A DNA stretch of 51,694 bases from Aurantiochytrium sp. KH105 (taxonomy: Eukaryota > Sar > Bigyra > Thraustochytrida > Thraustochytriidae): the NCBI GenBank assembly GCA_003116975.1, contig BGKB01000027.1, positions 494,636-546,329 on the forward strand, read 5' to 3'. Below the pieces are notes generated by a model, which saw only the letters and a program-made list of their open reading frames with translations, searched no databases and was not told the origin of the DNA. The translations under genes and the position numbers were made by a program. Below, piece after piece: positions 22,200 to 51,600 of this stretch. Each line of letters starts with the position of its first letter. Position 1 is the stretch's first letter.

Positions 22200-22610
22200 C
22201 TAACGACGGTCGTTAGGTCGTTAGGGTAGGAACGAATATACTAATCAAACGATCATTGGTGAACAAAGCTATATATACAATAGGGTAAAGTGTCCGATTT
22301 ACAACATCAATGTTAGAAAAATCATTTTTCGATCAAAAATCAAACTTTGGTTGCAGGAGTCGTGTAGGGCGAGCGAACGAGCATGGAGAGCTCGCAGTTT
22401 GATCAGTTAACGAAATTAGTCGATCGGTGTTTCTTGAGATCAATTATAGATTTCAGATTTTCCCTCGGCGCGGAGGCACTGGCGTCCGATTTGCACACGC
22501 AAATCTTGCGTAATGCTTCTGATTCTGGTTTCAAAATTTGCATTTTTTTTTATTACTGTGCATTTTTACCGGAATTGGTCCAGTGTTGCTTTACCCCACA
22601 AGACACATCG

Positions 22611-23391
22611 TCACTGTCCTTTCGCTTGTGGCGACGATTCCAGTTGACATAGGCCAGGATTGGCGATATCAGGGAATGCTCGAAGAAACTCTACGGTCAT
22701 ACGAAATAGTTGTGCACGTTTGGCTTGCCAAGGAAAGTTTTTATTCCATTGCTTGACCTTGGTCAAGTAGCTCACCAAATGGCAACGTTTTAGCTTGCCG
22801 CCTGTGTACTCAGAGAGAGCAGAGCTTGCAAGAAGTGCCGCTTTCACGAGATCCTCCTCTTCCATTGTATTCGGAACGCTCTCCGACGTTCCAGTTGGGA
22901 CTTCATCAGCGTTCCGGGGAGGGTTTGGTTCGAGTGGTTCGAGTGATGAGCTCGCCTCTTCTGAGATATGTTCCTCTGAGCTTGCAGAGAGGGACCGTAC
23001 AAGCTCTAGCAGCTCTTGCCGAGACCGCTGAATCGGAACACGTTTCCCTGCGAGTTGTAGGACCTCCATGAGTTTTGTTCTTGTAATCTTGTCATCTCGC
23101 GCAAACTCGAACGAGGAATCCTCATTTGCTTTTCGGAGTAGGAAAGCGCGAACACTTGCTTCGTCAACGAATTGCTTGTCCTTCTTCTGTTGACGAGGGT
23201 GCATTAAATCCATCCTGCACCACTTTGTTGCTGCTCCCTTTTGGCCGACCTCGGCCTCGCTTTGCGGGCGGCTCGGCCAAGGCCAAAAGATCGCAAAACT
23301 TCGAAGCGACCTCGTCGCTTTGTCTCTCCCCCGAGCCATCGACAGCTTCCGGCGGCGACGCAAAGTAGCTCGTGATCATGCGCTGGCTCAT
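22611..23391 (-). pseudogene. Element-encoded protein with N-terminal PIP box and AT-hook, frame broken
   Basis: The first frame (23164-23391) opens with MSQRMITSYFASPP, an exact PCNA-interacting (PIP) box Qxx[ILM]xx[FY][FY] at the extreme N-terminus, as in MSH6, UNG2 and LIG1. Around residue 45 it has an AT-hook core, KRGRGRPKG. It stops at 23164. The protein seems to continue in another frame (about 23210 to 22611), with basic and helical segments and a C-terminal block rich in Lys, Trp and Phe (KVKQWNKNFPW...). The two frames are joined either by a one-base-type frameshift or by a very short intron; a 37-nt candidate exists but its donor is weak. No catalytic domain recognised. Whether it is still functional is unknown. 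Confidence 0.5.
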
Positions 23392-23568
23392 CTTTCGATC
23401 TTTCGTCGACGGAGCTGCCGACGCGCTGCGCTAGATTAGATCTCTGCTGCTCGAGCTCTGCAACCACCAGGCCTAACCACCAGGCCTAACCACCTCTTGG
23501 GTTCGCGCTGGCAGTCAAGCCACCGTCCGCCCATATAAAAGTACTAGCCGGCCTATTTAAAGGCCTAT

Positions 23569-23579
23569 TTTTATATAGC
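23569..23579 (-). promoter_or_regulatory. Candidate TATA box of the TIR element gene
   Basis: CTATATAAAAA on the minus strand about 180 bases before the ATG at 23391, in otherwise GC-balanced DNA. Judged by motif and position only. Confidence 0.3.
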
Positions 23580-23808
23580 ATTGATTTACAACATGGTCTT
23601 AGTGAGTAGTAGGTAACTCCTAATCGATTTCTCGGGCGCCGATTATGTAGCAAATCTGTGTGATTTGCAAATCGGACGCTTTACCCTATTAGCGCGGATT
23701 GTATTGATCCGAGTATTCCTTCTAGAAGCTCGGATCGTCTACGCTGTTTGGTGATCCAGCAAACCCGAAAGGTCGGGCAGCAAAACCGAAACGAGACCTC
23801 ACCCACGC

Positions 23809-24109
23809 ATGTCTGACGTGAGTGAGGGTCGGGCAGAACCCGTCTTCAGGTCCGGTAAATACTTCGTGGAACGTCTGGGTGTGTCGCAAGACTTTTTACG
23901 TAAAAGCGCCGACAGCAAACGTATCCGCTTGATTCGTCTCCCTGGTGGAAAGCGATGCTATTGCGTCTCTGATGTCTTCGAGCTCGTCGGGCTTCCGCGT
24001 GCCGACGCCGGAGACGGACAGTGCGTCATATACGCACGGGTCTCTTCCGCGAAGCAGCGTGGCGACCTCGAACGACAGGTCGCTGAGCTCAGTCGAGCAT
24101 ACCCCGATC
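23809..24109 (+). CDS. tnpA: IS607-family serine recombinase TnpA, 5' part (runs into gap)
   Basis: The first 100 residues are readable before the N gap. Residues about 14-62 form a MerR-like winged-helix DNA-binding domain (KYFVERLGVS...FLRK...LPGGKRCYCVSDV), the IS607 hallmark. It is followed by the N-terminal end of the serine-recombinase catalytic domain, VIYARVSSAKQRGDLERQV, in which a Ser of ARVSS is the expected nucleophile. Family knowledge: this enzyme excises and inserts the element through a circular intermediate with little target specificity. The ATG at 23809 gives a normal N-terminus. About half of a usual TnpA (roughly 200 residues) is missing in the gap. Downstream lies the nuclease gene fragment, same strand. 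Confidence 0.93.
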
Positions 24110-24696
24110 NNNNNNNNNNNNNNNNNNNNNNNNNNNNNNNNNNNNNNNNNNNNNNNNNNNNNNNNNNNNNNNNNNNNNNNNNNNNNNNNNNNNNNNNNNN
24201 NNNNNNNNNNNNNNNNNNNNNNNNNNNNNNNNNNNNNNNNNNNNNNNNNNNNNNNNNNNNNNNNNNNNNNNNNNNNNNNNNNNNNNNNNNNNNNNNNNNN
24301 NNNNNNNNNNNNNNNNNNNNNNNNNNNNNNNNNNNNNNNNNNNNNNNNNNNNNNNNNNNNNNNNNNNNNNNNNNNNNNNNNNNNNNNNNNNNNNNNNNNN
24401 NNNNNNNNNNNNNNNNNNNNNNNNNNNNNNNNNNNNNNNNNNNNNNNNNNNNNNNNNNNNNNNNNNNNNNNNNNNNNNNNNNNNNNNNNNNNNNNNNNNN
24501 NNNNNNNNNNNNNNNNNNNNNNNNNNNNNNNNNNNNNNNNNNNNNNNNNNNNNNNNNNNNNNNNNNNNNNNNNNNNNNNNNNNNNNNNNNNNNNNNNNNN
24601 NNNNNNNNNNNNNNNNNNNNNNNNNNNNNNNNNNNNNNNNNNNNNNNNNNNNNNNNNNNNNNNNNNNNNNNNNNNNNNNNNNNNNNNNNNNNNNNN
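24110..24696. other. Assembly gap (587 N)
   Basis: Undetermined bases. The gap replaces the end of TnpA and almost all of TnpB/Fanzor. A typical remainder of TnpA plus the missing part of a TnpB would need about 1.2-1.5 kb, so either the gap size is an underestimate or the nuclease is internally deleted. Open frames crossing the N are meaningless. Confidence 0.99.
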
Positions 24697-24845
24697 TCCA
24701 TACAGGCATTGGTCGTGACAAGACCTTTCGCTGCCCACACGCGAACTGTTCCTACGTCGCCGACCGCGATATTAATGGCGCGCGCAATATTCTTATCCGA
24801 TTCATGACTACCTACATGGGTCAGTATGCGGCCTCTGTCTTTTGA
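24697..24845 (+). CDS. TnpB/Fanzor RNA-guided nuclease, C-terminal fragment
   Basis: About 49 codons to a TGA at 24843-24845, entering from the gap. The visible end has KTFRCPHANC, the second half of the zinc ribbon, then ADRDINGARNILIR. The latter is the RuvC-III motif of TnpB, Fanzor and Cas12-like nucleases, including the catalytic Asp. TnpB and Fanzor proteins cut DNA at sites specified by an RNA transcribed from the 3' end of their own element. The C-x4-C spacing and the accompanying TnpA suggest the Fanzor2 class carried on IS607-like elements. The first half of the zinc ribbon, RuvC-I/II and the RNA-binding domains are in the gap, so activity cannot be judged. Confidence 0.87.
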
Positions 24846-24965
24846 CAAGCCTTTGCCTCTACGGCCTGTGATGGGCAAGCGTAGTCCTCTTACGATCCCA
24901 TCATTGCAGAAATCTATACCAAGGATGCTCCCAGTCTCCCAAGAGGAAAACGAGGTTTTCAGCTG
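24846..24965 (+). ncRNA. Candidate guide-RNA (omega/fRNA) scaffold region
   Basis: Placed by context only: in TnpB and Fanzor elements the guide RNA scaffold comes from the 3' end of the nuclease gene and its downstream flank up to the element end. The only structure I can read is a perfect 6-bp hairpin, GAAAAC-GAG-GTTTTC (24946-24960), followed by a T-rich stretch. Ends are guesses. Confidence 0.25.
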
Positions 24966-24980
24966 AGTTATAGGTTTTTT

Positions 24981-25312
24981 TTAAAATTAATTAAATAGTA
25001 GCGTGGGAAGGTTCTCATCAGGCTGGACCTTTGCGGAGGAGGCGCAGGGACTCGGGTTCCGACGGGCTGATCACTGATGTGAGAGAAGAAATCGAGAAGG
25101 TCGTCTTCGTGGCTCTCTGGACGCCGCGGCATCGATCGATCGATCGATCGATCGATCAATTACGATACGAACGGACGATACACGAAGGGCCGACCTCGAC
25201 AAAGAGCTCCGGCTTCGTGGAGAACGCCAAGCGACCGCGCAGCAGCAAGGAGAGGGCCTCGCTCGCTTTCGAACCCAAGACCGCACGTGGCCTCGGAGGA
25301 GGATTTGACTGG
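24981..25312. other. Upstream region of the next gene
   Basis: Contains a (CGAT)n microsatellite at about 25131-25157. The frame of the next gene is open upstream to 25031, but the repeat-derived Asp-Arg-Ser-Ile peptide argues against that early start. Confidence 0.5.
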
Positions 25313-44207: not shown

Positions 44208-47200
44208 TCAGCTCACATTCACTCGCACCTGAGCATGCAAGATGTGAACCATTCCCATAACGTCACCGACAACGTAAACATTTCCCTGGCGAACTATACA
44301 ATTGATGTTATCGTCCGTCGTGAAGCCAACACCTCCGTCAAGCCTCACATGAGTTTCGTTTTCGATGTTTACGAATGTATTCGTTCGAGGTGTAGGCGAT
44401 GCCCCTGCCTCATTTGCGTCGCATTCCTCGCCCTTTCGAGCGTTCCAGTAACGAGTACCATCGAGAGAAAGTGAAATAATCGTATCGCCCTCAATCGCCA
44501 CGCTCCAGACCGGACCAGAGTGCCCCTTTAAAACGTACTGCACTTTTCCCGACGCAGCGTTCCAGGTGCGCACCGTCCTGTCGTTAGACGCAGAAACGAT
44601 AGTGCCGCCCCTAATCGCCACGCTCCTGACCCAATCAGAATGTCCCTTCAAAATGCATTGCTCCTCGCCCAACGTAGCGTTCCAGACGCGCACTGTGTTG
44701 TCATTGGATCCGGACACAACAATTTCGCCCTCAATCGCCACACTCCTGACCCATGTAGAGTGCCCCTTTAAAATGTGCTTTTCCTCGCCCGATGTGGCAT
44801 TCCAGATGCGCACCATCCCATCAGAAGATCCAGAAACGACCGTATCGCCCTTAATTGTCACGCTAGTGACACCAAAAGAGTGGCCTTTCAACACATGGCG
44901 CTCCTCGCCCGATGTGGCGTTCCAGATGCGCACCGTGCTATCCCAAGATCCGGAAACTATTACATCGCCTTCAATTGCCAAGCTCGTCACCGCATCATAG
45001 TGTCCATTCAACGCGTGGTGCTCCTCGCCCGACGTAGCGTTCAGAATGCGCACTGTGTGGTCCCAAGACCCAGAAACGATCGTATCTCCATCAATCCCCA
45101 CGCTCGTGATCTCGCCAGAGTGCCCTTTTGACACGTACGGTTTCTTGCCCAATGTGGTATCCCAGATGCACACCGTCCTGTCAACAGTCCCAAACACGAT
45201 CGTATTGCCTTCAATCGCCACGCTCGTCACTTTTGATGAGCCCTCCTTCAAAACGTGCCGCTCCTCGTCCGACGTAGTGTCCCAGATGCGGACCGTCCCG
45301 TCGGAGGACCCAGATACTATCGTATTGCCCTCGATTGCTACGCTCACGACCCAATCGGAGTGCCCCTCCAAGACGCTCTGCATTTCGCCCGACGTAGCGT
45401 TCCAGATACGAATTGTGTTATCATGGGACCCAGAAACAACCGCATCGCTACTAATCGCTACACTCGAGACGGCCTGAGAGTGCCCCTTCAGAACGTGCTG
45501 CTCCTTGACCGATGTAGCGCTCCAGATTCGTACCGTCTTGTCATCGGACCCGGACACGATTATATCGCCCTCAATCGCCACGCTCGTGACCGGCCAAGAG
45601 TGGCCTTTTAAAAGCCGCTGCTCGCCCGACGTAGCATCCCATATGCGCACCGTCTCGTCCGATGACCCAGACACGATCCTGTTGTCCCTAATCGCCACGC
45701 TCAAAACCGAATCAGAGTGGCCCCTGAAAACGTGCTGCTCCTCGCCCGACGTAGCGTTCCAGGTGCGCACCGTTCCGTCCTTGGACCCAGAAACGACCCT
45801 TTCGCCTTGAATCGCCACGCTCATGACCCAACGAGAGTGCCCCTTCAACACATGGAGTAAGGGGTCGCAGGGATGAGTAAGGGTGACGCGAGAAGGCTTC
45901 AGCCACGGCTGATCTGGTGCTTGCAGCGCCAAGGAGTCTTTCGGGTTAAAGCCAAGACGCGCCATGACTTGCGACGCAAGTTCGTTGGGATCGTAGCTGA
46001 GGGCATGCACTGCTTTGCTCAGAAAGCGAGGCGTATCACTTTCGGGCGCAATGTAGATGCCGACTTTGACGCAGTCGCTAATGAGGTTTCCGATTGTGAC
46101 GCGCCTTTGCGCTTCATCATCACCGACAGAAATGACCTTTCTTACCCAAGCAAAGTCATTTAGGAGATTGAAAGCTTCTGCTCGGTTTGTTTGGTTGCAA
46201 CTTTTGACGAGGTGGAAGATGGCGTGACGGAGCGAAAAGACATCGTCGCGCAACCTGCAATATTTGGCCAAGGCTTCATGACCGGCTTCAATGTCCACGC
46301 CAAGATCTCCGCTCAGGTCGTCGTCCAGCAGCCAGTCTGCCATCCGCTTGTGGATGAGCGCTAGGCGACCATCGCCGCCCTGGTATAAGAGATTGCGTGC
46401 GTTGTCAACAATCTTCTTGGTCTTCTTTTTGGTTAAGCCAAGAATCACGGTGAGTTGATCGACGCTCAGGGGCTCGCGTGCTGCCACTATGGGGGCTAGC
46501 AATAACTGGTAGGCTTCATCGCCGCCCATCTTAACTTTCAGTCGGTCAAAGTATCCCTTGAACATGCCGCCAAGCCCAGAAGGAATAACATCTTTCATGG
46601 AGATGTCGTGAATAGTCAGCAGCCCACACTTTTTCTCCTCGTGCATCCGCGCAAGCGTTTTGGGGAGGAAGCTTGTCCAGAGAAAGAGACCCCCGGATCG
46701 TTCGGAAAGAATCTTAGCGCAAGAAGCAACGTCCTTTTGCTCCGTGATCCCTTTCATGTCGCGAAGCAGGCGTCTGATGTGATTTTGGATGTCGCGAAAG
46801 TTATCTTCGGCCTTGAGCTGCAGCACTTTGGAATCAAGGCTGTTGTTGGTGATACCGCGCTGGATCTCGCCTTCGGGACGTGTGCTCACAACCAAGCTGA
46901 GCCATGCCGGCATCACATCCTTCCACATGCGAATGACTTTTTCCATGACATCGTCGCTCTTGCTGCATTCGTCCAAGGCGTCGAGCACGACCACTTGTCG
47001 CATCTGGTCTGACCTGAGCTTGTCTGCAGGATTGACGAGAATGAGCTGGAACACGTCGGCCAAGGGCTTGTCGCGAATATTGCTAAGTTTCACAGAGTTA
47101 AGCTTATTGGAAAAGCCGGGAACAGTCTGACAGAGCTGCCATGCAATGCTCACAATGGCCTCTTTTGGCGCAGCAGCCGTGGCTTGATCATGCCGAAAGA

Positions 47201-48620
47201 AATGGTAAGCCGCCACATGAATAGGCAACTGCTTTCTCTTGCTACGATGTGACGGGCCATGGCCATGTGACGAATTTCGGCGTGAATCGGTGCTTCCATC
47301 CGTCTCGCTCAATTCGGCATCTTCATCGATATGGAGAGCACCTCCGCAACGGCAAAGTTCGGCCATGACGACGCTTTTGCCGACGCCCCCATCGCCCACA
47401 AGAACGAATACGGCACTCTTAGCACAGTCGTACCAATCATAGAGCTCATCCAGGATCCAGTTCCGCGTGCCAATGGTAATCTTTTTGACCATACCCTTGG
47501 CCCATGCCTCTGAGCTCCAGGGGTTTAGGCGAATATAGATGTCGCGCATCAGAGGGGTGAGGTCAGATGAAGCTTCGGGGGTCGCGATGCGCATGCGAAT
47601 GGCATTGGCGAGGCGTTCGATCGCCTCGTCCGAAAAAGTGCCATTCGAACATTCGGAAAGATCCACCGGTGCTTGCCTTGTGAGCGCGAGCTGAAATCGC
47701 CCAGTCCACCCCGTTGCAGGCTTGGTCATGCACTCTTCCAGCGCGGCGACCACGATGCGGTCAGACCGTTTGTTGCCGGCGTATTGGAACTCCTTGAGAC
47801 AGTTGTCTGACCGATCACCTGTGTTAATCTTTTGCATGTACCCTTTGGTCGCGATGACGAGAAATACGGTGGACGAGTCGATGCCGTCAGCCATACTTCC
47901 GTGGATACTGCCAGACACTTGCTGAGCATCGAGCCAGACGTCAATGTCGTGGTCGCGGAGACGCAACGCGAGTTCGATGGCCATCTTGTGTACCCATTTG
48001 TCTTTGCCCCACTCGTGCGAGAGGAAGGCGTGAAAGCTCCGGCGTCCTGGCGCACCTACGGCACGGCCTTTGGCGGCAAGAGCTTCCCTCATCACGTCAT
48101 CAGCGGCGTCCTCTGTGGGCTTGCAAAAGTTGATGAACAAGTCGCCGGAGAAATACCAGGTAAGCACGCCCATCCAGTCCTTTGTATTAGCCATGACTTC
48201 GTCGATGAGGATGGGGACAAGTGAGTTGGGAAGGACCTTTGCCACTGCTTCGATGAGTTCCCAATTATCTTCGAGGTTTTTGCTCACGAGCAGTAGAGCG
48301 ACCTCGGCATCTTTGGCCTTCTGTTCGGCCTCTGCGACGAGGCTGCTGGTGCGCACGGGCACGCTGAGGCGGGGCTGGATCGCCTCGACCAGCTGCTCGG
48401 CCCCGGTCTCGTCTGCGGGATCGTGTACGATGAGGACGGCGACGTCGGCGAGCACCTCAGGGGGGTCGAGAAGCGCCTCCGCCTGTTCAGACGCGGCAGT
48501 ATGGAGCTCTGCCTCCGCCCGCGCGGCTTCGTTCACCTCGACCTCTGCGCGCGCTCCGCCGACGAGACATCCACTTAAGCACGCAATCAAGCTCTTCACA
48601 TTCCCCATGGTCGGTCCCAC
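44208..48620 (-). CDS. NLR-like receptor: TIR-NACHT-WD40
   Basis: 1470 residues, intronless. Domains in order: a TIR-like flavodoxin-type segment (about 56-165, uncertain); a clearer TIR domain (about 194-320: FHAFLSHEWG, VWLDAQQVSG, GIDSSTVFLVIATKGY, with NCLKEF giving Glu277 at the usual NADase position); a NACHT NTPase (about 400-600: Walker A GDGGVGKS 409-416, Walker B VVVLDALDE 543-551, then VVSTRPEGEI); a helical linker; and twelve WD40 repeats of 40 residues (about 923-1400). Such STAND proteins sense a ligand through the repeats and signal through the N-terminal effector, often in immunity or cell death. The Met at residue 5 (start 48608) gives MGNVKSLIACLSGC, a myristoylation motif with nearby cysteines, and may be the true start. 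Function in this organism is inferred. Confidence 0.93.
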   Translation of the reverse strand: MGPTMGNVKSLIACLSGCLVGGARAEVEVNEAARAEAELHTAASEQAEALLDPPEVLADVAVLIVHDPADETGAEQLVEAIQPRLSVPVRTSSLVAEAEQKAKDAEVALLLVSKNLEDNWELIEAVAKVLPNSLVPILIDEVMANTKDWMGVLTWYFSGDLFINFCKPTEDAADDVMREALAAKGRAVGAPGRRSFHAFLSHEWGKDKWVHKMAIELALRLRDHDIDVWLDAQQVSGSIHGSMADGIDSSTVFLVIATKGYMQKINTGDRSDNCLKEFQYAGNKRSDRIVVAALEECMTKPATGWTGRFQLALTRQAPVDLSECSNGTFSDEAIERLANAIRMRIATPEASSDLTPLMRDIYIRLNPWSSEAWAKGMVKKITIGTRNWILDELYDWYDCAKSAVFVLVGDGGVGKSVVMAELCRCGGALHIDEDAELSETDGSTDSRRNSSHGHGPSHRSKRKQLPIHVAAYHFFRHDQATAAAPKEAIVSIAWQLCQTVPGFSNKLNSVKLSNIRDKPLADVFQLILVNPADKLRSDQMRQVVVLDALDECSKSDDVMEKVIRMWKDVMPAWLSLVVSTRPEGEIQRGITNNSLDSKVLQLKAEDNFRDIQNHIRRLLRDMKGITEQKDVASCAKILSERSGGLFLWTSFLPKTLARMHEEKKCGLLTIHDISMKDVIPSGLGGMFKGYFDRLKVKMGGDEAYQLLLAPIVAAREPLSVDQLTVILGLTKKKTKKIVDNARNLLYQGGDGRLALIHKRMADWLLDDDLSGDLGVDIEAGHEALAKYCRLRDDVFSLRHAIFHLVKSCNQTNRAEAFNLLNDFAWVRKVISVGDDEAQRRVTIGNLISDCVKVGIYIAPESDTPRFLSKAVHALSYDPNELASQVMARLGFNPKDSLALQAPDQPWLKPSRVTLTHPCDPLLHVLKGHSRWVMSVAIQGERVVSGSKDGTVRTWNATSGEEQHVFRGHSDSVLSVAIRDNRIVSGSSDETVRIWDATSGEQRLLKGHSWPVTSVAIEGDIIVSGSDDKTVRIWSATSVKEQHVLKGHSQAVSSVAISSDAVVSGSHDNTIRIWNATSGEMQSVLEGHSDWVVSVAIEGNTIVSGSSDGTVRIWDTTSDEERHVLKEGSSKVTSVAIEGNTIVFGTVDRTVCIWDTTLGKKPYVSKGHSGEITSVGIDGDTIVSGSWDHTVRILNATSGEEHHALNGHYDAVTSLAIEGDVIVSGSWDSTVRIWNATSGEERHVLKGHSFGVTSVTIKGDTVVSGSSDGMVRIWNATSGEEKHILKGHSTWVRSVAIEGEIVVSGSNDNTVRVWNATLGEEQCILKGHSDWVRSVAIRGGTIVSASNDRTVRTWNAASGKVQYVLKGHSGPVWSVAIEGDTIISLSLDGTRYWNARKGEECDANEAGASPTPRTNTFVNIENETHVRLDGGVGFTTDDNINCIVRQGNVYVVGDVMGMVHILHAQVRVNVS
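44415..45854 (-). repeat. Twelve 120-bp tandem repeats encoding WD40 units
   Basis: Consecutive copies of HVLKGHSxxVxSVAIEGDxI followed by VSGSxDxTVRIWNATSGEEx. Most are exactly 120 bp; one lacks a codon and the sixth and twelfth are the most diverged. Differences concentrate at unit positions 8, 9, 25 and 27. Confidence 0.93.
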
Positions 48621-51600
48621 GGAGACAGGGTCGGGTCAGAACTCGGCCCTTCCGGTCGCCGCGAGTTCCCTTTTCTTGCGCGGCTGATCCCGTCTCCTCC
48701 TCTCGCGCGCGCGCCCTCTCCCTCGGCGGCGGCGGCGGCAGCGTGTTCGCGACCGCTCTCTCTCGCCCTCGGTCGCCTATCTTTGCTGCGCGTTGGCCTA
48801 CCTCCGGGCGTCCGCGCGGCGAAGAAAAGGGCTCGGCACTAACCCCCTTGCGCGCTAGTGATGTAGCGACTATCCCCGGAGGAAGGGGTTAGATGAGGAT
48901 CGTGCGCGCTGCACGTGCCGCTGCCGCTCGGACAAATTGTGTGTGCAAGCATGTGTAGCAGAGGCCGTGGTGCGGATGTCACTACAGCAGCATAGCTTGG
49001 CTGGCATGAGGGCTGGCGGCCATTCCCCGGCACGTGAGGGCGCTTTGGGTGATTGCGAGCGAGCACAGCGAGACCGCGACGATGCGCGCGGACGCGCCCG
49101 GTATTGGCATGGCCCTGATCTCAGGTGAGCGGCAGATGGATCTTTTTGCTCTGTGCTGCTCGCGGCAGCGGCGCCTTGCGAAGAGGACTGGCAGCGCAGC
49201 CAACACAGCTGCAGTGCCGGCCGTCGTGTAGCCGAAAAGAATGGCGGGCGGTCCGCTTTGACCCCGGAAAGTCAGGTCTCGTTTGAGAGATGATGACGAG
49301 AGAGGAGAGCAGGGAGCTCATTATCGCACCAGCCAGGTGCGTGGCGTGGCAGGAGGGTGGCCCAGAGTGACGGGGTGCAGCAGCAGCAGAGGTTAACCAA
49401 CCAAGGCGAACAGCCAGCTAGACAGCCAGATGGTTTTGAGCCGGCACGTCCTGGTGCAGCGCACGAAGAGACTGCTGCTATTCCAAAATGCGTGGGACTG
49501 ACTTCCGCTCAGCGCGGTGGGCCTAGGAACTGCACGAGATGGGCAAAAAGTGACCCTGACCAGCTGGCTGTTGCTGATCGTGCATTGCGTCGGGAGAGAG
49601 ATCACACGTCGCAGTCGTCGTTGCTGCTTTTGCTGATGTGGCTGGTGCGATTGCGAAAGTGTCTCGTTTGTCGACGGACTTGCGTTTCTGCCGCTACCCT
49701 GGCCATGCCGCCTTGCGTGCACGGCCCCAACGCTGAGGGCTGACGTCTGTCCTGCGACCGCTCTCCAGCTATGTGGCTCGCGCGCGGGCGCCTGTGCGTG
49801 CGCAAGACAGCCAACGGGTGCTGCTGGCGGATGCGGTTAGCTCAAGGCCATCGGTTCGCCGGCGCCATTCGTGCGCTAGCGCCCATACTGGGCCATTCGC
49901 AGCTCGCTGGCCGGCGCCCGAAGATCCTGCGCGCATGGCGAAGATGATTATGCTCGAGAGATGAAGAGAGCGAGTATACGGAAAAGAAAAAGGAAAGTGG
50001 TTCTGTAAGGGCAAGTCGCGTGAGAACCAAGTTGTGGTTAGATAGAAGAGCGAAGACGGCGAGATAGTCATCATCTCCTTTTTTTCTTTCGATCGGCGAA
50101 GTGTCGCAGTGGGCGGCTGCCTTTGAGGTGACTGCGACTGCGGCAACGGAGAGTCTTTTGTGATAGCATTGGATGAGACTGGGATGAGATCAGAGGTGGG
50201 TGGTTGTTGAGCGTACGCACTTTGTTTTTTCCTTGCAAAGGATCAACATGGTGACGGCTGCGGTGATGATGAGCACGTCTCTTCGAGCACTGGCAAGCAT
50301 GCAGCCGTTTTTTTTGTTTTTTTAAGCCAAGCAGGCCAGGCCAGGCTGCCTCGTGAGCGACGCGTCTGACTTGGGCATCGGTGGCTAGCTTGCCGCGCAG
50401 CGCGCTCGTTTTTAAAAATGTGTCCATGTCCACATCTGCCAAGTGTTTTATCCGCGCGTTGCAAAGTGGATCATTGGTCCTTGCAAATGAACAAACAGCC
50501 AGGCATAATCGGCGAAAACGAAGACTCGGCCAGTCTCGACCTCTCTGTCTCATCGTCGAAGACAAAACGACGAAGCCGGGCGCCGCGGAGAGGCGAGGGG
50601 CGCACCCAGGCAGCGCGCGGGCCCGCCAGGTGGTGTTGAGAGCCCGACGTGCGTTGGCGGGCGCGCGCTCGTGGCAGGTCCCGCCGCAGCGCTTTGGCGC
50701 ACGGAGCGGCTTAGAGTTGGATTGATCCAACGCATACGACGGGCGAAGGCGCGAAGGCGACGTCTCCAGCCGCGGGTGCCGGCAGCGCGAGCGAGCGAGC
50801 CAAAAGATAAGCGGGGAGGCTGAGTATGGTGAGCTGCAGTGGAGGCATGCGAGTCATAAAGACCGTCTTGCGCTGCCCGGCGTCTCGGCCTCTTGCGCAG
50901 CAACGAGGAAGGCGAAGAAAAGGCTGCCGCAGCGTCCAGGTGCCCTCGCGGGCGCTTGTGATCAAAGAAGACTTGAATGGCGCAGCGTGCATGTAATTTA
51001 CAATGGGCTACTCGTGCGCGTGGCGGTCTTGCATTGAGCTCACGTTCAAGTTGACTACAGCAAAGTCGATTGTTTTTAAGAATCGCGGCTGCTAGCGCCA
51101 ATCGCTTTTTCGATGCTGCCTTGAGGGCCAACGCGGGGCATCGATCCCCAAGTTTATGCGGCCATGGTCGCTAGCATCAGAGGCTAGACTGTAGGCGCCA
51201 TGTCGTCAAAGTCGTTGCTTGCTGCTGTGCCTCGTGCTCGCGAAAGAATCTCGACCAGTGGAAAAGACATGGTTCGGCGAAACGGGCTGTGCTGTTGCTG
51301 TTTCAGGTGACGAGCAAGAGGCCGAAGGGCATCGAAGTCCTGCGAGGAGACTTGGCTGGGGTGTGTGCTTGGACCATGTGTCGTTGCCAATGGCTCACTG
51401 GCTCACGAACGTGGACACCGAGCGCTCCAAGCGTGCTGCGGCCGGCGTTGTGAAAGCCACTTGGTTGCCAGTTGTCTTGATCGTTCCATCCGGGCGTTCT
51501 TTAGCTGAGCAGGCCAGAGACACCTTTGGAAAGTCTCTCTGCGGGTCTGCAAGACAATCTCGCGTGTGGAGCGGACATCGTCGTCGATTTGAGACACGGT

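Follow-up and report, generated by a model that had tools for sequence, protein, structure and literature searches.

The 51,694-nucleotide stretch of Aurantiochytrium sp. KH105 DNA analyzed here (hereafter the window; positions 494636-546329 of contig C27 in a genome of 76.0 Mb and 367 contigs) carries a damaged IS607-type element, in which the 5' part of a serine recombinase (TnpA) gene and the 3' part of a Fanzor2-type nuclease gene lie on either side of an assembly gap. As programmable nucleases, Fanzors are of interest for genome editing. The initial annotation took them for a recombinase with a nuclease lying downstream. Both genes are present, but the nuclease is not simply downstream, as its frame runs back through the recombinase gene. 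We propose that approximately 120 codons of the recombinase catalytic domain would serve two proteins, the second being an N-terminal extension of the nuclease in the +1 frame. The Pfam matches to the two genes in this genome include subfamily A1 (the window copy and those on C242, C165, and C266), subfamily A2 (C200 and C201), and the more distant family B (C21 and others).

The predicted nucleases of the relatives start far upstream of the nuclease core, and the additional part is the +1 translation of the recombinase gene. In 44 aligned recombinases (chosen rows, 30 + 14, each followed up to the first in-frame stop), we found no +1 stop in the 5,014 codons of columns 101-222, while columns 1-100 of the same genes, corresponding to the DNA-binding part, contained 67 in 3,464 codons; the grouping behind this count was made partly with the stop counts known (loci L277 and L296). 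We also scanned viral contigs with the recombinase alone as the query (best 80 of 180 relatives, 73 distinct) and regrouped the loci solely by the type of the downstream nuclease. The +1 frame had 0-8 stops in the 37 recombinases accompanied by a Fanzor-type nuclease and 11-23 in the 23 with no nuclease detected. The ordinary IS607 elements, albeit alike in gene order and transposase type, differed from the Fanzor-type elements in having 10-26 stops at all 13 distinct loci. No extension within the recombinase gene was seen in the ordinary IS607 elements examined, and at nine such loci the nuclease frame entered the recombinase match by 40 nt or less. We discarded the idea of Fanzor-type recombinases without a nuclease and with a relaxed +1 frame, as a TnpB match was found in all 43 loci listed.

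The paucity of +1 stops was then compared with two null expectations, from which the A2 copy on C200 was left out. At 12 Fanzor-type loci, 0-3 stops were observed against 7-18 expected from the codon usage of the nuclease core (P <= 0.001 for each), while two ordinary IS607 loci, near-copies of each other, had 16 stops against 12 expected. Under a stricter shuffle of synonymous codons within each gene, P was 0.05 or lower in eight of the 12 loci, and two copies of family B had no stop with P values of 0.0075 and 0.0025.

The overprinted product is conserved as well. The +1 translations of 30 sequences (427 pairs) were more alike than synonymous-shuffled genes give, with z of 28 for identity and 39 for BLOSUM score; the same test on 25 ordinary IS607 sequences gave 3.8 and 3.2, respectively. 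For the 286 pairs less than 45% identical, the BLOSUM z was 28.9 in columns 101-222 versus 2.2 in columns 1-100. The ratio of observed to expected synonymous codon identity (40 of the 44 recombinases) was 1.12-1.83 in columns 101-220 and 0.89-1.02 before them; in the nuclease core, it was mostly approximately 1, with blocks at 1.29 and 1.16. The synonymous-site difference between A1 (C242) and A2 (C200) was 45% in the overlap, 61% in the 5' part of the recombinase gene, and 82% in the nuclease core. At columns 163-164, the overprinted S and W are 95% conserved versus 50% and 70% for the I and V of the recombinase, and the S-W pair is invariant in an alignment of 35 proteins. Among the protein relatives listed for the A1 nuclease (120), the predicted sequences of 44 contained the extension motif. 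A database search with the extension covered proteins of 0.55-1.75 times the query's whole length, among which a stand-alone extension is undetectable, and listed 120 of 129 matches. Altogether, the second frame is open beyond chance and conserved as protein, as expected of dual-coding genes.

The arrangement extends beyond the eukaryote. A relative was found in 18 of 388 cyanobacterial genomes (E 1e-80), and 27 of the 30 cyanobacterial loci fetched had a recombinase match (absent in L320, L323, and L337), with the nuclease in the +1 relation in 25 of these 27. The extension persists even where the recombinase is broken. A survey of 87 loci yielded 84 with a match and 72 distinct Fanzor-type loci. 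A stop interrupts the recombinase frame in ten of these; nine of the ten had no +1 stop within the last 110 overlapping codons, and the tenth had a single one at the edge of that stretch. Across all 72 loci, +1 stops within the last 110 overlapping codons were found in five, in four of them within the first 11 codons. On plasmid A of Trichormus variabilis (NC_007410.1) and in Vibrio phage F100 (OZ195714.1), the recombinase frame has a stop, while the +1 frame, after a single stop upstream of the extension, is uninterrupted. The 20 records from Vibrio phages are probably one case. The phage F100 nuclease (L339, positions 101172-105026) lies between an HNH endonuclease gene and thymidylate synthase, and its annotated start (locus position 1357) falls inside the extension, whose match starts at 1201. 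Annotation can also drop one of the two genes, as in Microcoleus phage My-WqHQDG (OR578706.1), in which both frames are intact and the nuclease frame alone is annotated.

The best solved relative of the A1 nuclease is the mimivirus Fanzor2 (L79, PDB 9b0l), the best match in both sequence and structure, which aligns with part of the extension including the SW pair; residues before 155 were barely tested by the structural alignment except by 9b0l. This alignment lends indirect support to the translation of both frames. With an open frame, constraint at the protein level, survival in broken recombinases, and the alignment to a solved Fanzor2, we regard it as highly probable, judging from sequence comparison, that Fanzor2 and pro-Fanzor nucleases possess an N-terminal extension dual-coded in the recombinase gene.

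Several observations weigh against dual coding. In the overlap, the +2 frame lies above its null as well, with z of approximately 14, about half the +1 signal. We attribute this excess to fixed third positions and kinship, and part of the +1 signal must thus reflect kinship or shared synonymous sites. For family A, the stop test gives a weak result (two stops; P of 0.23 in the synonymous shuffle and 0.03 against core usage), and the stricter shuffle leaves four of the 12 loci above 0.05. Among the cyanobacterial loci with a recombinase match, L325 (nuclease in the same frame) and L329 lack the +1 relation, and L325 is the one locus of the 72 with stops deep in the overlap. As for the structure, most of the predicted extension has a pLDDT below 50, the 9b0l alignment is known by its end points only, and a sequence search with the extension alone gave an E of 0.24.

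These observations bear on two rival explanations. The element could be a Fanzor2 IS607 element of the ordinary kind, with a +1 frame that is open as an untranslated by-product of codon usage or base composition in this recombinase family. In-gene synonymous shuffles indeed already yield few +1 stops (means of 2.7-5.0 over the 12 loci), and family A alone is not significant in that test. On the other hand, the codon usage of the core predicts far more stops than observed (7-18), and the lack of stops is limited to columns 101-222 within these genes. It is also in those columns, and not in the preceding ones, that conservation of the +1 product exceeds its null, and the frame stays open in nine of the ten broken recombinases, so that we regard a by-product as quite unlikely. 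An accident of composition was likewise rejected: the tests of stops, synonymous sites, and alternative frames spoke against it, with ordinary IS607 elements and columns 1-100 serving as controls. Alternatively, the overlap may be constrained as DNA or RNA, such as a binding site or a regulatory or structured RNA, rather than as a second protein. The conserved synonymous sites agree with this explanation, and a like rise (2.02) at the end of the nuclease gene (last 20 columns) may reflect the guide RNA. Nevertheless, such a constraint leaves unexplained why one frame has no stop in 5,014 codons, why it is continuous with the nuclease core, and why it holds an invariant S-W pair and aligns to folded Fanzor2 residues; we deem it very improbable.

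A third explanation concedes that the +1 frame is translated, with the two frames joined by programmed frameshifting or splicing into a recombinase-nuclease fusion instead of being started separately. The fixed +1 relation in 25 of the 27 cyanobacterial loci with a recombinase match is consistent with a fusion, but a shift near the end of the recombinase would not require the +1 frame to be open across the whole catalytic domain, and +1-frame AUGs are found after the recombinase AUG. On C21 (family B), the first AUG to follow that of the recombinase is already the +1 AUG, at a distance of 7 nt. The A1 copies have theirs 163 nt after the recombinase AUG; on C165 and C266, the sole AUG in between is a +2 AUG at 146, of which the short frame ends in a UGA overlapping the +1 AUG (UGAUG), and on C242 there is one additional in-frame AUG at 141. 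These layouts probably fit leaky scanning or re-initiation in a eukaryote, and we consider a fusion unlikely. Under dual coding, the extension would be translated, in eukaryotes probably from the next AUG by either of these two processes.

By analogy with the known family, the element would be moved by its recombinase in double-stranded form and leave the target unduplicated; the nuclease would be expected to take a guide RNA from the 3' region and to cut DNA that matches it, for example the empty site. The extension, common to cyanobacterial pro-Fanzors and to elements of viral contigs, phages, and the present eukaryote, would place a helix (KPFWN..EISS) and a strand (SWFS) before the TnpB core already known. 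We further propose, with about even confidence, that the nuclease lineage that founded the Fanzors is marked by an overprinted N-terminal domain that was born in bacteria prior to the transfer to eukaryotes, is read from a second start, and is required by the nuclease, and that overprinting makes one sequence of nuclease and transposase. Neither could then be exchanged or freely changed, which would be part of the reason why they are inherited together. Where the recombinase is lost, the extension would stay in place, as at the loci with broken recombinases.

The identity of the element was confirmed as an IS607-type transposon with a serine recombinase and a Fanzor2-type nuclease, as initially annotated. 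In the complete copy on C242, Pfam reported Resolvase (E 5.6e-14), Cas12f1-like_TNB (E 1.7e-13), and HTH_OrfB_IS605 (E 8e-13), while OrfB_IS605 scored 29.4 bits, slightly under its cut-off of 30.5. The A1 nuclease carries TnpB-type helix-turn-helix and zinc-ribbon domains. The domain order and motifs of the recombinase match those of 11 aligned relatives, a MerR-like DNA-binding part followed by the serine-recombinase catalytic domain; Pfam reports only Resolvase for this protein, and the DNA-binding part was assigned from the alignment. According to the portions available of PMC10711439, DPG in RuvC-I and a displaced glutamate in RuvC-II separate Fanzors and pro-Fanzors from other TnpBs. Both features are present in A1 (AMDPGVRCF and GEAYTTKTC) and B (ATLDPGARDF and VPEEYTSKTC). 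In 16 aligned nuclease rows, D224-P225-G226, E365, the C4 zinc ribbon (C372, C375, C390, and C395), and the following R401-D402 are invariant. Thus, the RuvC acidic residues, the absence of which would have spoken against the annotation, are present in the full-length copies. Three Microcoleus pro-Fanzors (P0144, P0204, and P0225) have lost the zinc-ribbon cysteines after TSKT (TSKTVSWTG) and kept the extension, which in P0225 sits behind an unrelated N-terminus.

In a 56-row tree, A1, A2, B, and 44 other sequences were separated from nine ordinary TnpBs with an SH-aLRT of 100. The nuclease thus groups with Fanzor2 and pro-Fanzor sequences, in a quick tree with SH-aLRT in place of bootstrap and with named Fanzor1 rows left out; its giant-virus and viral-contig labels for IMG/VR loci are our own and tentative. 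Families A and B fell on different branches, indicating two unrelated Fanzor lineages in one genome. Cyanobacteria provide most of the nearest relatives in named genomes, and one Riflebacteria bin is among the top five (best 80 of 366).

The initial annotation placed the element at 23689-24980. We corrected this span to a body and a separate left fragment, divided by a nested transposon, and the window copy comprises the following parts.

22200-22282, plus strand: left-end fragment of the IS607-type element, 83 bp, of which 67 bp are 100% identical to C242; the outermost ~50 bp of the complete left ends are absent
22283-23686, no strand assigned: nested transposon of 1,404 bp with inverted repeats, not part of the element; the site is uninterrupted in C165 and C266
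23687-25003, plus strand: element body with the right end ..AATAGTAGCG, 98-100% identical to the three complete copies
23809-24109, plus strand: N-terminal part of the serine recombinase (TnpA), with the MerR-like DNA-binding part and the beginning of the catalytic domain (YARVSS); the N run truncates the gene
23972-24109, plus strand: start of the proposed Fanzor N-terminal extension in the +1 frame (ATG, MSSSSSG..), inside the recombinase gene; the frame is continuous with the Fanzor core in C242, C165, and C266
24110-24696, no strand assigned: assembly gap of 587 N, corresponding to ~1.6 kb in the complete copies
24697-24845, plus strand: C-terminal part of the Fanzor2-type nuclease, with the zinc ribbon and RuvC-III (ADRDINGARN); stop at 24843-24845
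24846-25003, plus strand: 3' region, putative guide-RNA scaffold, with a predicted hairpin GGCCTG..TGCAG at 24863-24909

The recombinase N-terminus (ATG at 23809, CVIYARVSS from 24022) and the nuclease C-terminus (FRCPHANC at 24726-24749, ADRDINGARN at 24759-24788) are thus where they had been annotated, in the same orientation with the N run between them. Their pairing is not a matter of chance, since three other contigs of the genome contain both 23687-24109 and 24697-24978, likewise in this order and 98-100% identical. The N run is either approximately 1 kb shorter than the missing sequence or the window copy has an internal deletion. The nested transposon has terminal inverted repeats of approximately 20 bp, GGGTAAAG..CTTTACCC, and is flanked by a TA duplication (22281-22282 and 23687-23688), one copy of which forms the last bases of the left-end fragment. 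At least 26 dispersed relatives of its terminal stretch were found across the genome, and its minus-strand open reading frame (22614-23375, 254 aa) had no match in Pfam.

A search of the assembly with the sequences flanking the N run recovered complete copies, raised as a possibility in the initial annotation, on C242, C165, and C266. They are whole elements of 2,452-2,455 bp with unrelated flanks, 0.45-0.74% apart, and both the recombinase and Fanzor frames are open in each. We regard these near-identical copies at unrelated sites as a sign of recent movement of the family. Of the suggestion that the element is recent or active, this part holds for the family, but the window copy itself is damaged, with approximately 50 bp of the left end gone, the nested transposon inserted, and approximately 15 extra bp near the right end relative to the complete copies, and we rejected it as an active element. 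The left ends of the complete copies read GA(T/G)AGGTTAG, and their right ends are as in the window. Neither inverted repeats nor a target duplication was seen at their ends and flanks, as expected of a Fanzor2-class IS607-like element; Fanzor1 proteins usually sit in transposons with inverted repeats. GCC lies immediately 5' of all three insertions, a possible target or motif preference. In family B, the copies (C21, C132, C168, C73, C90, C9, and others; L003-L018, L061, and L062) are 92-99% identical, and both frames are open on C21.

It had been cautioned that the segment might be bacterial or viral contamination, and the nearest cellular relatives in named genomes are indeed mainly cyanobacterial. 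However, Pfam matches to the nuclease (at least 25) and the recombinase (at least 17) occur across the 76-Mb genome, the window copy is interrupted by a transposon dispersed in the same genome, and two genes of the window code for a mitochondrial carrier and for a kinase that has cyclic-nucleotide-binding domains. These two genes place the element in a eukaryotic, protist chromosome as annotated, and contamination is extremely improbable.

In the 3' region, six of the 41 pairs in a predicted fold shared by A1 and A2 are changed on both sides and nine are broken or gapped in some row, the comparison comprising two sequence types only. On this basis, the predicted fold may suit a guide-RNA scaffold; an Rfam search gave no match. 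At the 3' end of the nuclease gene (last 20 alignment columns), synonymous codon identity across 40 loci was 2.02 times that expected, perhaps due to a guide RNA overlapping the coding end.

Overlap between IS607 genes is not new in itself. According to the parts available of PMC6188088 and PMC9956272, respectively, IS607 coding sequences often overlap and do so partially in some bacteria. Eukaryotes and large DNA viruses harbor Fanzor2 IS607-like elements (Bao and Jurka, 2013; PMC3627910) that likewise combine a serine recombinase with a zinc-ribbon Fanzor2 and lack inverted repeats and target duplication; the passages available do not mention the gene overlap, unlike the present element, in which the nuclease frame runs through the recombinase gene. 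The cyanobacterial pro-Fanzors, IS607 TnpBs with the same DPG and displaced glutamate, showed the same +1 overlap in our analysis; in the available portions of their description (PMC10711439), a recombinase-coded extension is unmentioned, and 'overlap', 'N-terminal', and 'reading frame' are absent from the main text. The available part of PMC4058570 describes no overprinted extension, and no report of one was found in the titles, abstracts, and passages searched, with supplements and subscription papers outside the scope. Thus, the conserved dual-coded part of the nuclease is a new feature of a known type of element. If it is real, gene models and constructs that start at the TnpB core miss a conserved stretch of the enzyme, and there is a simple reason why nuclease and transposase are physically linked. 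A protist family with recent, near-identical copies also offers a setting for watching IS607 transposition in a eukaryote.

Elsewhere in the window, the minus strand of 44211-48635 carries a 1,475-aa frame with TIR, NACHT-like (NPHP3_N), and WD40 repeats, an architecture that recalls immune-type receptors.
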